A stretch of 58,930 bases of DNA from Verrucomicrobiia bacterium (GTDB lineage Bacteria > Verrucomicrobiota > Verrucomicrobiia > Limisphaerales > JAOAIM01). Position 1 is the first letter of the stretch, and each line of letters opens with the position of its first letter. The stretch is from contig JAOAIM010000002.1 of NCBI GenBank assembly GCA_026414705.1, forward strand, positions 16,817-75,746. The letters run 5' to 3'. Below the pieces are notes generated by a model, which was given only the letters and a program-made list of their open reading frames with translations, was not told the origin of the DNA and did not search any database. Shown here piece by piece: positions 49,916-56,641 of this stretch. The position numbers were made by a program, and so were the translations under genes.

Positions 49916-50698
49916 CTACAGGAAAGCCAGCAGCACGACGCCCAGAACGATGCGATACCACCCGAACAGGACAAAGGTATGCGTCTGGACGTAACGGAGC
50001 AGCCACCGCACAGCCACAAACGACACCGCCGCCGCCACCACCGTGCCGAGCACCAGCAGTCCCCAATCCTCCGACGGGCCGGCCCCTTCATGTCGCAGCG
50101 CCTTGAAAATTTTCCAACCCCCGGCACTGAGCATCGTCGGGATGCCGACCAGAAATGAAAATTCCGTCGCCGCCGGTCGCGCCACGCCCAGCATCAACGC
50201 CAGCAGAATGGTCGCGCCGGAGCGGGACGTGCCCGGGAACACCCCGGCAATCAACTGCCCCGCCGCCACGGCCACAACCACCGACCAGGAAATTTCGGAG
50301 CGCAGCGGCCGCCCGCGCAACCACGCTTCCACGACCAGAAACAACACCCCGCCGAGCACCAGCGCCAGCGCCACCGGAAACACCGTTTCGGGCAGCTTGA
50401 AACCGAGCCGGTCGAGCACCAGACCCGGCGCCGCCGTCAGCGCGAACGCGACGGCGATTTTGAGCAGATAATCGCGCGTGGCCGGATCGCGTCCCAACGC
50501 GACAAACTGCCGCAGCCGTTCGGGAAACAGCGGCAGCACCGCCAGCACCGCGCCGCATTGAATCACGATGTTGAACAGGTCGCTTTGCCGGGGCAACCAA
50601 CGCTCCGCCAACAACAGATGGCCCGTGGAGGAAACAGGGATGAACTCGGTCAAACCTTCGATGATGCCGAGCAAAACAACCGCGAGCCAATCGGGCAT
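49916..50698 (-). CDS. uppP: Undecaprenyl-diphosphatase
   Basis: Recycles undecaprenyl pyrophosphate to the monophosphate carrier; also known as BacA. 260 residues and eight membrane helices. Both family signatures are present: GIIEGLTEFIPVSSTGHLLL near the N-terminus and GVFPGTSRSGATILLALMLG in the middle, with the later EFSFLVGIPTMLSAGGWKI. Length normal. An array of 17-base repeats (50776-50936) lies directly upstream, so its promoter must be inside or next to that array. Confidence 0.96.
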   Translation of the reverse strand: MPDWLAVVLLGIIEGLTEFIPVSSTGHLLLAERWLPRQSDLFNIVIQCGAVLAVLPLFPERLRQFVALGRDPATRDYLLKIAVAFALTAAPGLVLDRLGFKLPETVFPVALALVLGGVLFLVVEAWLRGRPLRSEISWSVVVAVAAGQLIAGVFPGTSRSGATILLALMLGVARPAATEFSFLVGIPTMLSAGGWKIFKALRHEGAGPSEDWGLLVLGTVVAAAVSFVAVRWLLRYVQTHTFVLFGWYRIVLGVVLLAFL

Positions 50699-51018: not shown

Positions 51019-51426
51019 CTACTTCCGCGATTTGGCGAACAAACCGCCGAGCGGGGATTTGTCGCCTTCGGTTTGTTGGCGCACCTTGAGCTGGCCGAGG
51101 ATGGCGTGCCAGCCGATGTAAATCTTGTGCCACTGGTTTTCGAGGTTGCGGAGGGCGGCGTCGTTGAGTTCCGAGAGATAGCGCAGGGAAGGGGCGCTGC
51201 CGATGAGGGCGTGAATCTCCTCCTTGGTTGGGGAGGAAATTTCCATGGCGGCCAGGATCAGTTCCAGTTCCTGAATGAGAACGCTTTTGACTTCGAGAAA
51301 CTGGTTTTCGTCCTCGGCGCTGAATTTTTTGGAGCGCGCGAGGTTGACGAACCCGTTGAACTGTTTCCAGCACTCCAGGTAGTTCTCCAGTTGGCGGATG
51401 AGAGCGTCGAGTTTTCGCGGTTTCAT
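51019..51426 (-). CDS. Helical protein of unknown function in the MglA locus
   Basis: 135 residues, nearly all alpha-helical and charged (KLDALIRQLENYLECWKQF, SAEDENQFLEVKSVLIQELELILAAMEI, LNDAALRNLENQWHKIYIGWHAIL), with a short Gly/Ser tail. No domain recognised. It overlaps the upstream roadblock gene by 4 bases (ATGA) and is the last gene of a three-gene unit with the PATAN response regulator. A scaffold or adaptor role for the GTPase switch is a guess from position. Confidence 0.75.
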   Translation of the reverse strand: MKPRKLDALIRQLENYLECWKQFNGFVNLARSKKFSAEDENQFLEVKSVLIQELELILAAMEISSPTKEEIHALIGSAPSLRYLSELNDAALRNLENQWHKIYIGWHAILGQLKVRQQTEGDKSPLGGLFAKSRK

Positions 51427-51746
51427 GGGATGCGGTCGCCGGCGCTTCGGGCCGGGCTGATGAGGGTCACGGGCGAGAGGAACACCAGCGCGCCACCGCG
51501 CAACTCCCGCGCGACGATTTTCAGGCCGCCGTAGTGGACAATGAGTTCATGGAGCGGCAACTGAGCGGCGCGCGCCTCCGCAAAGGTTTCCCGGACGTGT
51601 CGCCCGATCTCCCGAACAAACGCCTCGGGAAAATCCGAGGGCAGCGTGCTGACGACAATCGCGCCGTCGCGGTCCACGGTGAAGCAGCCGCTGGGCATTC
51701 GCAGCGGCGGCGGCGCGGCGCGGGAGAAAAGTTTTTTCAGGACCAT
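51423..51746 (-). CDS. Roadblock/LC7-like small protein
   Basis: 107 residues from ATG 51746; the frame is open further upstream but only as the shadow of the regulator gene. The pattern GCFTVDRDGAIVVSTL, a helix (EAFVREIGRHVRETFAEARAAQL), IVHYGGLKIVARELRGGALVFL is the roadblock fold (beta-beta-alpha-beta-beta), the MglB-type dimerisation and GTPase-binding module. It overlaps the regulator stop by 10 bases and the next gene by 4 bases. Confidence 0.75.
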   Translation of the reverse strand: MVLKKLFSRAAPPPLRMPSGCFTVDRDGAIVVSTLPSDFPEAFVREIGRHVRETFAEARAAQLPLHELIVHYGGLKIVARELRGGALVFLSPVTLISPARSAGDRIP

Positions 51747-52804
51747 GTGGCCAGCACCTTTTTCATGCGCTCGCGCACCTCGGCGGCGCCCAGGGAATGT
51801 CGCCACCCGATGCACAGGCGCGCATCGCCACAGGCGGCCAGCGCCACGTGGCGTTGAAGCCCCAGCCCGATGATTTGTTCCAGCGGCCCGGCCCGGAGTT
51901 GCTCGCCCAGCGTGCTGAAACGTCCCAGGGTGCGTTCCAACCATTGGGCCAGCCGTTCGGGATTTTCCAGGCCCAGCGCCTCAAACCGCCCACCGCCCGC
52001 AGCCTCGCCGAACGCCAGCACGAATTCGACCTCCTCACCCTGCGCAATCGTCGCCAGGCGCGAGGCCGGGCGCGGCGCAGATTCGCCCGGGGTCGGCTCG
52101 GCCCCGGCCGACTCATCAAGCGCCTGCGCTGTTTCCAGGAGCAGCGCATTGCAGGATTTGAGAATGCGACGGGGATGTTCCGGTTCGGGCGGCAGGATTT
52201 CGAAGCTGCCCGCTTTCCATGCGAGGATTTTGCGGAACGCCTCCTCGCCGGTAACCCCCTCGGTCTCGGCGTCCACCAGTTCGCCGTGAAGGATCCAGAT
52301 GCGTCCGGTGAGCGGGCCGTTGATGATGCGGAGCGTGGAGGAACTTTGCGAAAGGCACTCCAACTGGATCAGGTCCACCAGGCTCTTGCTCTGGACGCCG
52401 CGGAAACCGGCCTCCTCGGTCTCGCGGCCCAGGAGCGACTCGATGCACTCCAGGAACATGCGGGTTTCCTGATCGGAGGAGGGCTTTTGCCAGTAGAGGT
52501 CCACGCCCAACGCATAGACGCGCGAGCGGAATTGCTCGTCGGAAACCGACGTGAGCACCACGGTCCGCAGGGCCGGATACTTGCGGCGCACAATCGAAAG
52601 CACCTGCAAACCGTCCATCTTGGGCAGCTTCAGGTCGCAGATGAACAAGCGGAACGGATGCGCTTCGAGCAACGCCATGGCGCGCGGGCCACTGGTGGCG
52701 GTGAAAATTTCCGGCCGACTCGGCAGTTGCCCGAGCATTTCGCGGTAGAGCTCGAGCAGGTCCGGCTCGTCATCCAGCAACAAAATTTTGTGGCGCGTTT
52801 CCAT
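51737..52804 (-). CDS. Response regulator: REC + PATAN (DUF4388) + roadblock-like domain
   Basis: 355 residues from ATG 52804. REC domain residues 1-120: acidic pocket DD (11-12), phospho-acceptor Asp57 (FICDLKLP), Thr/Ser of VVLTSVS and Lys of WQKP. A DUF4388/PATAN domain follows (about 130-235: KSLVDLIQLECLSQSSSTLRI, GRIWILHGELVDAETEG, GEEAFRKILAWKAGSFEI). The C-terminal 100 residues (EEVEFVLAFGEAAGGG, LEQIIGLGLQRHVALAACGDARLCIG) are roadblock-like. PATAN regulators work in surface motility and polarity systems of other bacteria. The partner kinase is not in the window. Divergent from the mglA operon, with a 464-base shared upstream region. Confidence 0.9.
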   Translation of the reverse strand: METRHKILLLDDEPDLLELYREMLGQLPSRPEIFTATSGPRAMALLEAHPFRLFICDLKLPKMDGLQVLSIVRRKYPALRTVVLTSVSDEQFRSRVYALGVDLYWQKPSSDQETRMFLECIESLLGRETEEAGFRGVQSKSLVDLIQLECLSQSSSTLRIINGPLTGRIWILHGELVDAETEGVTGEEAFRKILAWKAGSFEILPPEPEHPRRILKSCNALLLETAQALDESAGAEPTPGESAPRPASRLATIAQGEEVEFVLAFGEAAGGGRFEALGLENPERLAQWLERTLGRFSTLGEQLRAGPLEQIIGLGLQRHVALAACGDARLCIGWRHSLGAAEVRERMKKVLATWS

Positions 52805-53268
52805 GCGCGTCGGTGATGGCCCGGAATCCAGCCGCAAAAGCAGGCTTGGAACGGCCCGGTTGAAAAGCAAGTGATATTCCGCGCCGCTCCGCAGCAACCC
52901 TCCGCTCCGGGTTTCACCCGCAAAAATCGCCCGCGCCCACCGGCCCCCCGACCCGGCTCGGTCGCCCGCCGAATCATTCCGGGGCAAAGAGTGGGACAAC
53001 CCAGTCTTTCGATGAGACAGCGCGTCGGTGGCGAAACCCGCGCGAAAAACCGCGTCCCCGTGGCGGCTGGGCAACGGGTTGACCGGTCCGGGCTTCGGGC
53101 GCGCCCGGCGCGTGGTGCGGTGGCATGTTTTCTGCCCCTTGAACCGCAGAAATCGTAACGCATTCCGAACCAGCACATGCACAGCGCAAAAGCAGACGGT
53201 CGTGGCCGGGTGCGGACACGTTGTTGGCCCGCTGCGGCAGCCCCTGCCCGGAGACGGTGGTTGGAGTC
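52805..53268. other. Divergent regulatory region of the MglA locus
   Basis: 464 bases between the PATAN regulator and the roadblock/mglA operon. No gene-like frame. It should hold both promoters; one -24/-12 type match is listed separately. Confidence 0.5.
53121..53135 (+). promoter_or_regulatory. Candidate sigma54 (-24/-12) promoter
   Basis: TGGCATGTTTTCTGC has GG and GC dinucleotides in the correct register for a sigma54 promoter (consensus TGGCACG-N4-TTGC). It would start transcription about 120 bases before the roadblock gene. A single match; no enhancer-binding protein gene lies in the window. Confidence 0.3.
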
Positions 53269-55284
53269 ATGAGCGCCATTGCCGAGAGCGTGAAATTCCG
53301 ATTTGTCGGCCTGTGGAAACAGCTACGGCGACGCCTTAACGGCACGCCGCTTGACCCGGCCGCCCCGCCCGCAGTGCCCCCGGCCGCACCCGCTCCAGCC
53401 ACGCGCACGACCGCCACGCCGGCCAGGGCGGTAAGCCCCGTGCCGACAACGGTCGGCCCCAAGCCCGCCGTGGGCAACCAGATTTGCATCCCGCTGTGCA
53501 CCATCGTCAGCACCTTGCCTCTGGAATTGCGCGCGCGGGTCAAAGCGGCCGACACCACCGGACTGTTATTCCCCGTGGCCGTCGAAGACATTCTCCCGCA
53601 ACTGGCCGGCGGGGTGGTCAAAGTGACCTTTGGTCAACTGCGCCAGGCGCTCCCCCAAGCCTTCACTCCGGGCAACAGTTGCGACGAGGTCCAGGTCGTT
53701 TTACCGCTGAGCGAAATTCTGCCACGCCTCAATCCGGCTTTGCTCCCGCGCCGCACGCACCAAAAACAGCTCACCGTTCCGAGTCATGTCACCGGGCCGT
53801 TCGAGCACGGCGCCCGTGGCGTGACTTTTTCGGTGGGGAAACCCCAACCGGAGCCGGCGACCGCGCAACCCGCCGGTGCGCCGGCTCCGGTGGCATCCGC
53901 CTTTGCGCCCGGCGCCACCGCGCCAGCCGCTCGCCCCGCGCCCACGCCGTCCACGGCGCCGCCCGCCACATCTCGAATCGCTCACCCCGTGTCGCCAGCA
54001 GCCTCGCCTTCGACGCCGAAAGTCGCGCCGCGACCGGGCGTGCAGGTGTCGGAGGACGTGCCCGCCGAAATTTTCCGGCGCGCGCCCGCTGTGGAACAGC
54101 CAGCGTCGCCCCAGCCGGCTTCACCCCGGCCAGCGTCGCCCGCGTTGTCTCCGGCCCCGTCACCGCTGGCCGCCAAGCCGTCGGCTGGATCGCCCGCCCC
54201 AGCCCGCCCGCTCGAACCGGTGCGTCCGGCCGTTTCCACCCCAATCGCCGGCCGCTCCGCGCCGAGTGCCAGACCGCACGATGCCCCCGCCGCGACGCAG
54301 AACGGGTTGCATCCGGCGGCCGCAAAACCGCCGGCGCCCGCAACGTCTCCGAGCGTGGACGAACCCACGTTGTTGGTGGACCTCTCGGCGGTGCTGGGGA
54401 ACTGGCCCGAAGGGCTGCGCCAGGAAATCGTGACGCTCAATCTGGCAACCGCCCGACTCGCCCTGCCGCTGGCGCTGGTGGAGACCGGGCTCCGACAGGG
54501 CCGCGCTGTGTTCAGTTGGAAGGTGCTGCGCTCGTATTTGCAGCCCGCGCCGCCGCCCAGCCCTTCGGCGTTTGAGGCAGCCGAACTGGAATTGCCGCTC
54601 AATGTCCTGGCGCCGCTGTTCATCGCCCACAAGAAGGCCCAGGCCGCCCCCAAGCGGCGGCTCACGGTGGACGAGACCATTCCGAATCTCTTTTCAGCGG
54701 CGCCGACGCACGAGTCGCCGCCGGCTTCATCGCCCCAGATTAGCGAACCGATTGCCGAGCGCGTCGCTGAGGCCGCACCCGCACCGCCCGCAACGCCCCC
54801 GCCGCCCGCCCCGCGCGAAAACAAGGTCGTGGACACCAACTACTACGTGTGGGACGACGTCAACGAGACGGCGCGGGTGGACGAGACCGAGTTCAAGCGG
54901 CGGCCGGCTTCCGGCGGCACGGATTTCATCGTCAAATACGCCACCCCCAACGAGATCGTCTCGCGCGCGGCGGCGCTCGAGGGGGTGGCCGGGGCGCTGA
55001 TCGCGCTGCCGGACGGGTTGATGGTGGCCAGCCGGATTCCATCGGATTTGAACGGCGACACGCTGGCGGCGTTTCTGCCGCAGATTTTCGCCAAGGTGAG
55101 CCAGTGCACCAGGGAGCTGCGCATGGGCGAGTTGAACAACCTCGCTTTCACCGTGGGCAACGTGCCCTGGAAGATTTTCCGCGTGAACGCGATTTTCTTT
55201 GCGGCCTTTGGGCGACAGGGCGAGGCGCTGCCGACCGCACCGCTGGCGGCGCTGGCCGCGGAACTGGACCGACGACAACGCTAA
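53269..55284 (+). CDS. Roadblock/LC7 protein with duplicated N-terminal domain and Pro/Ala linker
   Basis: 671 residues from ATG 53269 (Shine-Dalgarno GGAG 5 bases before). A basic amphipathic start (VKFRFVGLWKQLRRRL), a first domain (about 72-190), a Pro/Ala-rich linker of some 170 residues, a second copy of the same domain (about 364-485) and a C-terminal roadblock/LC7 domain (about 555-670: ATPNEIVSRAAALEGVAGALIALPDGLMVASRIP, MGELNNLAFTVGNVPWKIFRVNAIFFAAFG). The two copies share LPLSEILPRL/LPLNVLAPLF and RRTHQKQLTV/PKRRLTVDE type strands. The unit fits a membrane- or scaffold-attached partner of the GTPase encoded 6 bases downstream. Confidence 0.85.
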   Translation: MSAIAESVKFRFVGLWKQLRRRLNGTPLDPAAPPAVPPAAPAPATRTTATPARAVSPVPTTVGPKPAVGNQICIPLCTIVSTLPLELRARVKAADTTGLLFPVAVEDILPQLAGGVVKVTFGQLRQALPQAFTPGNSCDEVQVVLPLSEILPRLNPALLPRRTHQKQLTVPSHVTGPFEHGARGVTFSVGKPQPEPATAQPAGAPAPVASAFAPGATAPAARPAPTPSTAPPATSRIAHPVSPAASPSTPKVAPRPGVQVSEDVPAEIFRRAPAVEQPASPQPASPRPASPALSPAPSPLAAKPSAGSPAPARPLEPVRPAVSTPIAGRSAPSARPHDAPAATQNGLHPAAAKPPAPATSPSVDEPTLLVDLSAVLGNWPEGLRQEIVTLNLATARLALPLALVETGLRQGRAVFSWKVLRSYLQPAPPPSPSAFEAAELELPLNVLAPLFIAHKKAQAAPKRRLTVDETIPNLFSAAPTHESPPASSPQISEPIAERVAEAAPAPPATPPPPAPRENKVVDTNYYVWDDVNETARVDETEFKRRPASGGTDFIVKYATPNEIVSRAAALEGVAGALIALPDGLMVASRIPSDLNGDTLAAFLPQIFAKVSQCTRELRMGELNNLAFTVGNVPWKIFRVNAIFFAAFGRQGEALPTAPLAALAAELDRRQR

Positions 55285-55290
55285 GACGCC

Positions 55291-55905
55291 ATGGCCATCA
55301 TCAATCAAGCCACCCGGGAACTGCAGGTCAAAATCGTCTATTACGGCCCGGCGATGGGCGGCAAAACCACCAACCTGGTGCAAGTGCACGACCACGTGCA
55401 GACCGCCGCCGGCCAAAAAGGCAAGCTCGTCTCCCTGGCGACGAGTTCCGACCGCACGCTGTTTTTCGATTTCCTCCCCATCGAGGCCGTTTCGATCAAG
55501 GGCTTTCGCACCAAGTTCCAGCTCTACACCGTGCCGGGCCAGGTCATTTACAACACCACCCGCCAACTGGTGCTGCGCGGGGTGGACGGCATCGTGTTCG
55601 TGGCCGATTCGCAATACGAAAAAATGGCCGAAAACGTCGAGAGCTTCCAAAACCTCCTGGACAACCTCCGCAGCCTCAAGCTCAACCTCGACGACATCCC
55701 CTACGTGCTCCAATACAACAAGCGCGACCTGCCCAACGCCGCGCCGATCGAATACATGGAATTTTTGCTCAACAACCGCGAGGTGCAGGTGCCCGCCTTC
55801 CCCTCGGTCGCCCACCGCTGCGAGGGCGTGTTCGAAACCTTGAACATGATCACGCGCCTGCTGCTGAACAAGTTCATCAACCAGCGCGAACCGCAATACG
55901 CATGA
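55291..55905 (+). CDS. mglA: MglA-type small GTPase
   Basis: 204-residue Ras-like GTPase. P-loop GPAMGGKTT (19-27), switch I DRTLFFDFLP, switch II YTVPGQVIYN (the usual DxxG Asp replaced by Thr as in MglA), QYNKRDL for guanine specificity, and VFVADSQYEKM. Close in pattern to Myxococcus MglA, which sets cell polarity for gliding and twitching motility and is controlled by the roadblock GAP MglB. Here one roadblock gene lies 6 bases upstream and one begins 1 base after the stop, so all three are translated together. Confidence 0.95.
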   Translation: MAIINQATRELQVKIVYYGPAMGGKTTNLVQVHDHVQTAAGQKGKLVSLATSSDRTLFFDFLPIEAVSIKGFRTKFQLYTVPGQVIYNTTRQLVLRGVDGIVFVADSQYEKMAENVESFQNLLDNLRSLKLNLDDIPYVLQYNKRDLPNAAPIEYMEFLLNNREVQVPAFPSVAHRCEGVFETLNMITRLLLNKFINQREPQYA

Positions 55906-55906
55906 C

Positions 55907-56386
55907 ATGGCCGGCCTGCCCCAACTCTTCGAGGAGGACATCCGCCAGCTCGACGCGGTCCTGCGCGAATTCCTGGAGCGCACCGAGGCGACGACAGCGG
56001 TGCTGGTGGATCAGGGCGGCTTTCTGATCACGCATCAGGGCGACGGGCGGCGATTTGATCTGACCACGCTGGGCGCGCTGGCTTCCGGCGCGTTCATGGC
56101 CACTCAAACGCTCGCCCAACTGCTCCACGAGGACACCTTCGAGAGCGTTTATCAGGCCGGTCAGGAACACAGCCTTTTCATCACGCACGTCAACGAGCAA
56201 TGCCTCCTGGCGGTGGTGTTCCGCGCGCAGGTCGGCGTCGGCGTGGTCAAATACTTCGTCGGCCCCGCGCGCGAGCGCATCGCCCGCCAACTGGAACTGG
56301 CTCACCTGCGGGATCCAAGCGTGACGCTGGACTTGTCGGTGCTCAACGTGGCCGACACCAGCAACGTGTTCAAACGCAGGGCTTGA
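55907..56386 (+). CDS. Roadblock/LC7 (MglB-like) protein
   Basis: 159 residues. LRQLDAVL-type first helix (IRQLDAVLREFLERTEATTAVLVDQGGFLITHQGD), LGALASGAFMATQTLAQLL, FESVYQAGQEHSLFITHVNEQCLLAVVFRAQVGVGVV: the canonical roadblock fold in the same order as MglB. A C-terminal tail of about 40 residues (ARERIARQLELAHLRD, then a Leu/Asp/Val stretch) extends past the fold. It begins one base after mglA and is the likely GTPase-activating or localising partner; the catalytic GAP arginine finger was not identified. Confidence 0.88.
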   Translation: MAGLPQLFEEDIRQLDAVLREFLERTEATTAVLVDQGGFLITHQGDGRRFDLTTLGALASGAFMATQTLAQLLHEDTFESVYQAGQEHSLFITHVNEQCLLAVVFRAQVGVGVVKYFVGPARERIARQLELAHLRDPSVTLDLSVLNVADTSNVFKRRA

Positions 56387-56401: not shown

Positions 56402-56641
56402 TTACGCCAGGTTGCGATGCGTGCCGTCGCAGAACGCGCCGTTGCCGGAATGTTTGCAGCCGCACCAGGCCACGGTCTTCTCCTCGCGCAAGTCCACCTT
56501 GAGCGGGGACAACCCCGTGCCCTTGTGCGAGCCGTCGCAGAACGGCTGCGTTTTTGAGGCGCCGCACGCGCACCACCAATACGTCCCCGGCGCGGTCTTC
56601 TGCACGTAGGGCGATTTTTGAGCGATTCGAGGTTCGGGCAT
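56402..56641 (-). CDS. Tandem CDGSH iron-sulfur protein
   Basis: 79 residues carrying two CDGSH-type [2Fe-2S] motifs: CACGASKTQPFCDGSH and CGCKHSGNGAFCDGTH. Each has the three Cys and one His ligand pattern C-x-C-x(n)-C-D-G-(S/T)-H. Small bacterial members act in redox or iron-sulfur homeostasis. It is convergent with the mglA operon, ending 15 bases after the roadblock stop codon. Confidence 0.92.
   Translation of the reverse strand: MPEPRIAQKSPYVQKTAPGTYWWCACGASKTQPFCDGSHKGTGLSPLKVDLREEKTVAWCGCKHSGNGAFCDGTHRNLA

Follow-up and report, generated by a model that had tools for sequence, protein, structure and literature searches.

A conserved six-gene locus of MglA, MglB-like and REC-PATAN proteins in the verrucomicrobial order Limisphaerales

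Introduction

One of the closest described relatives of the system considered here is that of Myxococcus xanthus, in which the GTPase MglA and its partner MglB are accompanied by RomR, RomX, RomY and MglC. MglA is a Ras-like switch, which outside the group studied here determines in which direction bacteria move over surfaces. In this study we analysed a 5.4-kb locus of six genes from a Verrucomicrobiia bacterium (Limisphaerales; JAOAIM01; assembly GCA_026414705.1, contig JAOAIM010000002.1, positions 16,817 to 75,746 of the forward strand); this whole stretch of 58,930 nucleotides is referred to as the window. Both that system and the locus comprise an MglA of the Group 1 type with an MglB homologue, and in both the GTPase is accompanied by at least two roadblock proteins and a regulator with a receiver. 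However, mglA of M. xanthus is not located near the genes of these partners (PMC4316618), whereas in the present locus the genes are clustered. Moreover, the regulator found here, P0001, has the architecture receiver (REC), PATAN and roadblock, and neither the protein P0003 nor the repeated domain of the long protein P0004 has a named counterpart. The likeness to RomR, RomX, RomY and MglC is one of role only.

A second group of relatives are the PATAN-REC regulators of cyanobacterial phototaxis (PixG, PixE and relatives), which likewise combine a receiver with a PATAN domain. In the cyanobacterial proteins the PATAN domain is N-terminal, whereas P0001 starts with the receiver, carries an added roadblock and is encoded next to an MglA GTPase; in the available literature, binding to PilB has been reported for the cyanobacterial members only. 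PATAN genes near MglA or MglB have been noted as occasional in Groups 1 and 5 (PMC4316618, citing Makarova 2006). Compared with the neighbourhoods described in the available part of that survey, the present locus combines Group 1 motifs with a fixed six-gene form and a fusion of PATAN to a roadblock. Finally, the actinobacterial conservons, which contain Group 2 MglA proteins, are likewise constant gene sets linked to two-component signalling that include a small GTPase and a roadblock protein. Conservons possess a histidine kinase, CvnC and Group 2 GTPase motifs, whereas here we found a response regulator and Group 1 motifs. The GTPase carries TVPGQ rather than GTPGQ and no kinase is among the conserved neighbours, so the locus is not a conservon as defined; CvnC was not searched for.

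Results

The six-gene locus is conserved in the order

On translation, the locus consists of the genes for P0003 (51019-51426, 135 amino acids), P0002 (51423-51746, 107 amino acids) and P0001 (51737-52804, 355 amino acids) on the minus strand. They are divergent from those for P0004 (53269-55284, 671 amino acids), MglA (55291-55905, 204 amino acids) and P0006 (55907-56386, 159 amino acids) on the plus strand, with the intergenic region at 52805-53268 between P0001 and P0004. P0001 and P0002 overlap by 10 bases and P0002 and P0003 by 4, while 6 bases separate P0004 from MglA and a single base MglA from P0006. These six genes, with the same orientations, overlaps and gaps, had been given in a preliminary description made from the DNA sequence, which proved exact.

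A scan with MglA of a collection of 84,980 species genomes gave 334 related places, of which the best 80 loci were used. They lie on Verrucomicrobiota-type contigs or on contigs of metagenome-assembled genomes (MAGs), many of them labelled Limisphaerales, Pedosphaera or 'subdivision 3'; single MAG contigs are titled Akkermansia or Methylacidimicrobium, which seems questionable. The contents of the loci were determined by tblastn with each protein, and a locus counted as fully flanked if it extended 4.7 kb or more upstream and no less than 550 bases downstream. All six genes were found in 51 of the 55 fully flanked loci, and P0004, MglA and P0006 in every one of them. Even among the 25 shorter loci, ten still showed all six genes, and the orientation was the same in all 61 loci with the complete set. 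With the six genes complete in 51 of these 55 loci, the arrangement is not a product of chance. Conservation of the neighbourhood in relatives had been chosen beforehand as the check on which the idea of a single system could fail, and the idea withstood it.

At the gene junctions, a 13-base overlap of P0001 with P0002 recurs in 59 of the 61 six-gene loci, against 10 bases in the window. P0002 overlaps P0003 by 4 bases in 30 of them, and in 37 a single base separates MglA from P0006. The fixed overlaps suggest translational coupling, and part of the conservation at the very end of P0001 and the start of P0002 may be due to them. Centralia_MAG_180 contains two of the 80 loci, one in the full six-gene form (L052) and one with the core P0004-MglA-P0006 alone and a PATAN match on the opposite strand (L092).

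The two gene sets occur together

We determined the occurrence of the proteins in 58 genomes of the same order, counting P0001 at 340 bits or more (a match of 197.6 bits in G052 was left out). MglA was present in 34 genomes, P0003 in 39 and P0001 in 36. MglA and P0001 occurred together in 32 genomes, MglA alone in 2, P0001 alone in 4 and neither in 20; for MglA and P0003 the corresponding numbers were 32, 2, 7 and 17. Fisher tests, which ignore the kinship of the genomes, gave 1e-9 and 2e-7, respectively. P0001 was never found without P0003: both were present in 36 genomes, P0003 alone in 3 and neither in 19, so that 19 of the 22 genomes lacking P0001 also lacked P0003. The repeat domain of P0004 was detected in 36 genomes, namely in all 34 with MglA and in G027 and G035, whose contigs end inside P0004. 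Robl_LC7 was matched in all 34 MglA genomes and in only 1 of the 24 others. In G011 the two gene sets are located on separate contigs; therefore, the pairing outlives the linkage. Taken with the conserved neighbourhood, the co-occurrence supports the earlier proposal that the six genes form one system, in so far as they behave as one module in the order.

Seven genomes appeared to have P0003 without MglA. Besides G027 and G035, these are G054, in which a short contig starts inside P0002, G009, G051 and G053, which have stops in these genes, and G029 with P0003 alone. The P0001-P0003 set of G053 (L113, 2463-4622) and the lone P0003 of G029 (L116, 7911-8961) adjoin genes that we take to be TonB/ExbB/ExbD-like. 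Two further families were considered and dropped: PilT as a discriminating output, since the family is present in 58 of 58 genomes, and CheW as a fixed input, which was found in 22 of 34 genomes with MglA and in 8 of the 24 others.

MglA, the MglB-like protein P0006 and the long protein P0004

MglA matched solved MglA structures with an E-value of 7.9e-64 (phmmer against PDB), and the source genome (3.94 Mb, a draft assembly of 390 contigs) has one MglA match. The G.GKTTN core of the P-loop, the Asp-Arg-Thr of G2 (SDRT), TVPGQ and NK.D are kept in all 81 sequences, from the window and the 80 loci. TVPGQ together with an arginine beside the G2 threonine defines Group 1 MglA (PMC4316618) and, by motif, the MglA of this locus belongs to Group 1. 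In the available part of the same survey, Verrucomicrobia are placed under Group 5 only.

P0006 matched solved MglB with 1.1e-13 (phmmer against PDB) and Pfam Robl_LC7 with 2.9e-12. The match to the NCBIfam MglB model had an E-value of 8.8e-19, but its 68 of 200 bits are below the equivalog cut-off. The gene adjoins mglA in 55 of 55 fully flanked loci. As judged from its roadblock/LC7 sequence, which is closest to MglB, and from its place beside mglA, P0006 is a relative of MglB. Its roadblock contains Asp-x-x-Gly in 74 of 74 sequences, and that of P0004 an adjacent Asp-Gly pair (Asp in 76 and Gly in 78 of 78 sequences). MglB of Groups 2-5 has been associated with the adjacent pair, and MglB of Group 1 with an Asp at a distance of two positions (PMC4316618).

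For alignments A1 to A5, the window and 24 hand-picked loci of the 80 were used. In P0004, an unnamed domain with a length of about 105 residues is present twice (53473-53811 and 54370-54705, plus strand), as seen from a profile match of the second copy to the first (hhalign, E 9.7e-15). The protein also has a linker with 61% Pro, Ala or Ser, and a C-terminal roadblock with the conserved Asp-Gly pair (54952-55284). Robl_LC7 was matched in this roadblock in 25 of 25 aligned orthologues (best 2.5e-9), the value for the window protein, 3.2e-4, lying under the curated cut-off in Pfam. The repeated domain of the window protein had no significant match in Pfam or NCBIfam and no significant relative in PDB (best E 0.86); in the source genome it occurs in just these two copies.

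P0001 is a REC-PATAN response regulator with a roadblock-type end

In P0001, a receiver (52466-52786; Pfam Response_reg, 2.1e-18) is followed by a PATAN domain (52109-52384; Pfam DUF4388, 1.6e-13), and both were matched by Pfam in one chain in 25 of 25 aligned sequences. P0001 carries the sole DUF4388 match of its genome. Of 64 receiver rows, 63 retain the first acidic residue, the phosphorylation Asp and the Lys; just as many have Thr or Ser in the switch position, and 62 keep the second acidic residue. The exceptional row, L092, is not orthologous to P0001. Since Asp and Lys are retained, control by phosphorylation of the receiver is plausible.

The structure of P0001 was predicted by AlphaFold2 with a mean predicted local distance difference test score (pLDDT) of 87.1. 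The C-terminal 110 residues (51737-52075) are predicted with a pLDDT of about 90 in the order helix-strand-strand-helix-strand-strand-strand-helix, which is the layout of a roadblock. A profile of 63 P0001 C-termini (A6, without the non-orthologue L092, whose match is on the opposite strand, and L107, whose match ends at residue 323) found a Robl_LC7 protein as its best PDB match (E 0.0024; runner-up 0.12). In Pfam, Robl_LC7 was the commonest family among the matches, with 4 of 63 C-termini (best 0.0013), while the window C-terminus had no Pfam roadblock match. With the predicted topology, the profile match and the Pfam matches, a roadblock-type domain at the end of P0001 is well supported, and the REC-PATAN-roadblock fusion of the preliminary description holds.

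The fold search with the whole predicted chain was filled by receiver domains. Comparison of P0002, P0001 and P0004 with MglB, and of P0001 with P0002, by hhalign detected nothing. This test has low power, as it also missed the accepted roadblock of P0004 against MglB, and was therefore used as evidence neither way. When the domains were cut out and compared with length filters (21 pairs), the best P was 0.0036 for the P0001 C-terminus against the P0004 roadblock, which is not significant after 21 tests.

Upstream of mglA in L094, the REC-PATAN-roadblock gene and the gene for the small protein are tandemly duplicated. A second set of REC-PATAN paralogues with about 100-200 bits was seen at G005:C161:8575-9600, G028:C77:4395-5459 and G041:C61:63269-64240; some matches of this set extend to profile position 328-341 and may end in a roadblock, too. 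The paralogue of G005 is located about 2.5 kb from MglA.

P0002, P0003 and further neighbours

For P0002, a roadblock protein was the single PDB profile match (E 0.035, about 40 residues), and none of 64 members matched Robl_LC7 in Pfam. The sequence pattern is compatible with a roadblock core, and P0002 is probably a roadblock. The preliminary description had counted four roadblock domains in the locus: those of P0006 and P0004 are clear and that of P0001 is well supported, while the fourth, P0002, is only probable.

P0003 is at least as well conserved as P0001 (mean column identity of 67% in A3 versus 57%). It is predicted as an entirely helical bundle (AlphaFold2, mean pLDDT 90.6) and matched no family in Pfam or NCBIfam. 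Fold comparison gave generic helical bundles only (Foldseek, best E 0.052; VIA-align, best Z 12.8, which is below the level meaningful for such bundles), and DUF1539 was matched below threshold in 2 of 25 sequences only, so that we do not assign P0003 to a family.

The other repeated neighbour in several reference loci is a putative undecaprenyl-diphosphate phosphatase gene beyond P0003 on the same strand (49916-50698, minus strand); the copy from the window found a match in 32 of the 80 loci. Just past the MglB-like gene, a small protein encoded on the opposite strand (56402-56641, minus strand) contains two cysteine motifs that we take to be CDGSH-like.

PATAN proteins accompany MglA elsewhere in the phylum

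Among 288 sampled genomes of the phylum, 27 contain MglA and only two P0003, the source genome and G223. We examined 20 of the 26 MglA loci from other genomes (left out were G247, G256, G251, G237, G330 and G279). Using local profiles, MglB-type P0006 was found in 16 of the 20; the P0004 repeat domain and/or its roadblock was detected in 13, with weak or single matches in L181, L183 and L185. A PATAN protein is encoded adjacent to MglA in 8 of the 20 loci, one of these matches (G278) being under the Pfam cut-off. About 0.09 would be expected by chance (P about 3e-15, with genomes treated as independent and genome sizes rounded); the median number of DUF4388 genes in these 20 genomes is one.

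The other domains of the adjacent PATAN proteins vary. PAS was found in L171, L173 and L177, a weak receiver in L172 and no named domain in L178 and L181. The protein in L180 (2446-4296), beside MglA, has MshEN, then a receiver, then PATAN, and that in L184 (9056-11008) has a receiver and PATAN behind a front region similar to the MshEN part of L180 (1.8e-18). In G223, MglA, P0004 and MglB are encoded on one contig (L170), and on another (L120) the gene for a PATAN protein overlaps that for the P0003 relative; therefore, P0003 there also accompanies a PATAN protein in an MglA genome. The core P0004-MglA-MglB is the wider unit, repeatedly accompanied by a PATAN protein whose sensors are changeable. 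The version of this order has the REC-PATAN-roadblock form together with P0002 and P0003.

Discussion

Our data describe one module in which an MglA GTPase, an MglB relative and a REC-PATAN-roadblock regulator are kept together. It had been suggested that a REC-PATAN-roadblock fusion beside mglA is undescribed. The proximity of PATAN to MglA or MglB has already been published (PMC4316618) and is known, so that only the fusion and the constant six-gene arrangement appear to be new. In the literature searched, which excluded Makarova 2006, we found neither the order-wide module nor the fusion. PATAN and roadblock appear together in the sense of bacterial signalling only in PMC4316618 and PMC11580455, as far as their available parts go, and nothing in the same literature joins MglA with Verrucomicrobiota by name, or DUF4388 with 'response regulator'.

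By analogy with the known systems, the locus may encode an MglA/MglB-type small-GTPase switch in which P0001 would join a sensor input to the roadblock layer of MglA; we consider the chances of this reading about even. In M. xanthus, the response regulator RomR holds the roadblock protein MglC, which in turn holds MglB, and MglA-GTP breaks the contact between the two roadblocks (PMC10329633). Complexes of several different subunits that act as guanine nucleotide exchange factor (GEF) or GTPase-activating protein (GAP) are common for roadblock proteins (PMC9481161), and PATAN regulators of Synechocystis bind PilB (PMC10519157, PMC9090330, PMC12288463). In the proposed mechanism, a histidine kinase would phosphorylate the receiver of P0001, which would alter the docking of its C-terminal roadblock on the layer formed by MglB and the P0004 roadblock and, in consequence, affect how MglA hydrolyses or loads GTP. 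The PATAN domain would couple the complex to an output machinery, most likely the extension motor PilB of the type IV pilus, as in the case of the Synechocystis PATAN proteins. P0004 would be an obligate scaffold of MglA, and P0003 a partner of the PATAN protein. Because the RomR-MglC-MglB precedent can be joined with the binding of PATAN to PilB, P0001 might be RomR-like and MglC-like in one chain and able also to touch the pilus motor. The PATAN protein would then be an adaptor from the sensor to the roadblock layer, and perhaps also to the pilus motor. As to the earlier claim that a phosphorylated regulator feeds the GTPase, the retained receiver residues make the phosphorylation plausible, while the action upstream of MglA is something we infer. 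An input role of the PATAN protein is favoured by its place beside MglA in 8 of the 20 loci outside the order and by the variation of its N-terminus among them.

A more far-reaching form of this switch seems rather unlikely to us. Here, the response regulator would plug its own roadblock into a stack of roadblocks (P0001, P0002, P0004 and MglB) round MglA, like Ragulator on the Rag GTPases, while PATAN would hold the pilus motor. A single protein would in this way link phospho-signalling with the state of the GTPase and with the motor. The PATAN protein would then be a phylum-wide socket for exchanged sensors such as receiver, PAS and MshEN.

Several observations weigh against the proposed mechanism with P0001 as the link between a sensor and MglA. 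Four of the 55 fully flanked loci (L046, L092, L096 and L100) have the core without adjacent P0001-P0003, and in G055, a genome of 97% completeness with MglA, neither P0001 nor P0003 was matched at the chosen thresholds. Conversely, G053 has P0001-P0003 without MglA, its P0001 bearing a stop. No kinase gene is found among the conserved neighbours of the 80 loci. CheW is missing from 12 of 34 MglA genomes, so that a chemosensory kinase is no fixed input; with CheW in just 22 of them, the kinase therefore need not be chemosensory. PilT is equally present in genomes without MglA, and a pilus output is thus permitted, not singled out. Lastly, profile-profile comparison, with its low power, found no kinship of the P0001 C-terminus or P0002 with MglB.

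P0001 could instead be an effector: MglA-GTP would recruit the PATAN regulator via its roadblock, and the receiver would tune the action on the pilus motor, with no feed into the GTPase. It has been shown that MglA-GTP of M. xanthus recruits PilB through SgmX (PMC11580455), PATAN domains bind PilB, and the four loci with the core alone are as expected of an add-on output. On the other hand, the N-terminus of the PATAN proteins is a changeable sensory module (PAS, REC) in other lineages, and GEF or GAP complexes are frequent among roadblock proteins (PMC9481161). Both points are compatible with an effector as well, a reading to which we give limited credence.

Likewise only tentative is the possibility that the module governs a process other than motility, such as envelope growth, the division site or polysaccharide export. 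The sole other conserved neighbour, found in 32 of 80 loci, is the gene that we take to encode an undecaprenyl-diphosphate phosphatase. PatA, after which PATAN is named, has a role in heterocyst formation (PMC4316618), and PilT does not track MglA. However, the characterised Group 1 MglA proteins in the available literature act in motility or predation, and the cyanobacterial PATAN regulators studied there act on type IV pili. In addition, MshEN is part of a PATAN protein adjoining MglA in L180, with a similar front region in L184.

It appears improbable that P0002 and the P0001 C-terminus are other small alpha/beta domains of similar layout. This would agree with the lack of Pfam Robl_LC7 matches in the window P0001 and P0002 and with the negative profile comparisons, but the predicted topology of P0001, its profile match and the prevalence of Robl_LC7 among the Pfam matches (4 of 63 C-termini) argue for roadblocks, as does, for P0002, a single weak match (E 0.035). 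Least of all do we expect the two divergent gene sets to be unrelated neighbours kept by slow rearrangement: all members are from one order and gene distances correlate as shared vertical descent predicts (52 loci with all six genes complete, excluding L094 with its duplicated genes), which by itself is no proof of interaction, but the sets are present or absent together over the 58 genomes, persist unlinked in G011, include 19 of 22 P0001-less genomes also without P0003, and PATAN proteins adjoin MglA in other groups of the phylum.

Most detailed knowledge of how a two-component signal reaches a bacterial Ras-like GTPase comes from Myxococcus, whose genes for this route are dispersed. In Verrucomicrobiota, for which the MglA literature as searched consists of one survey, MglA is accompanied in several lineages by PATAN proteins whose sensors are changeable, and two uncharacterised families, the P0004 repeat domain and P0003, can now be flagged as MglA-linked components. 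A whole order of soil and water bacteria keeps the GTPase together with MglB, a receiver-roadblock regulator and an obligate partner without a name within 5.4 kb, so that the link could be reconstituted from a short piece of DNA. By means of this locus, the connection between sensing and polarity, here the presumed output, would be directly testable.

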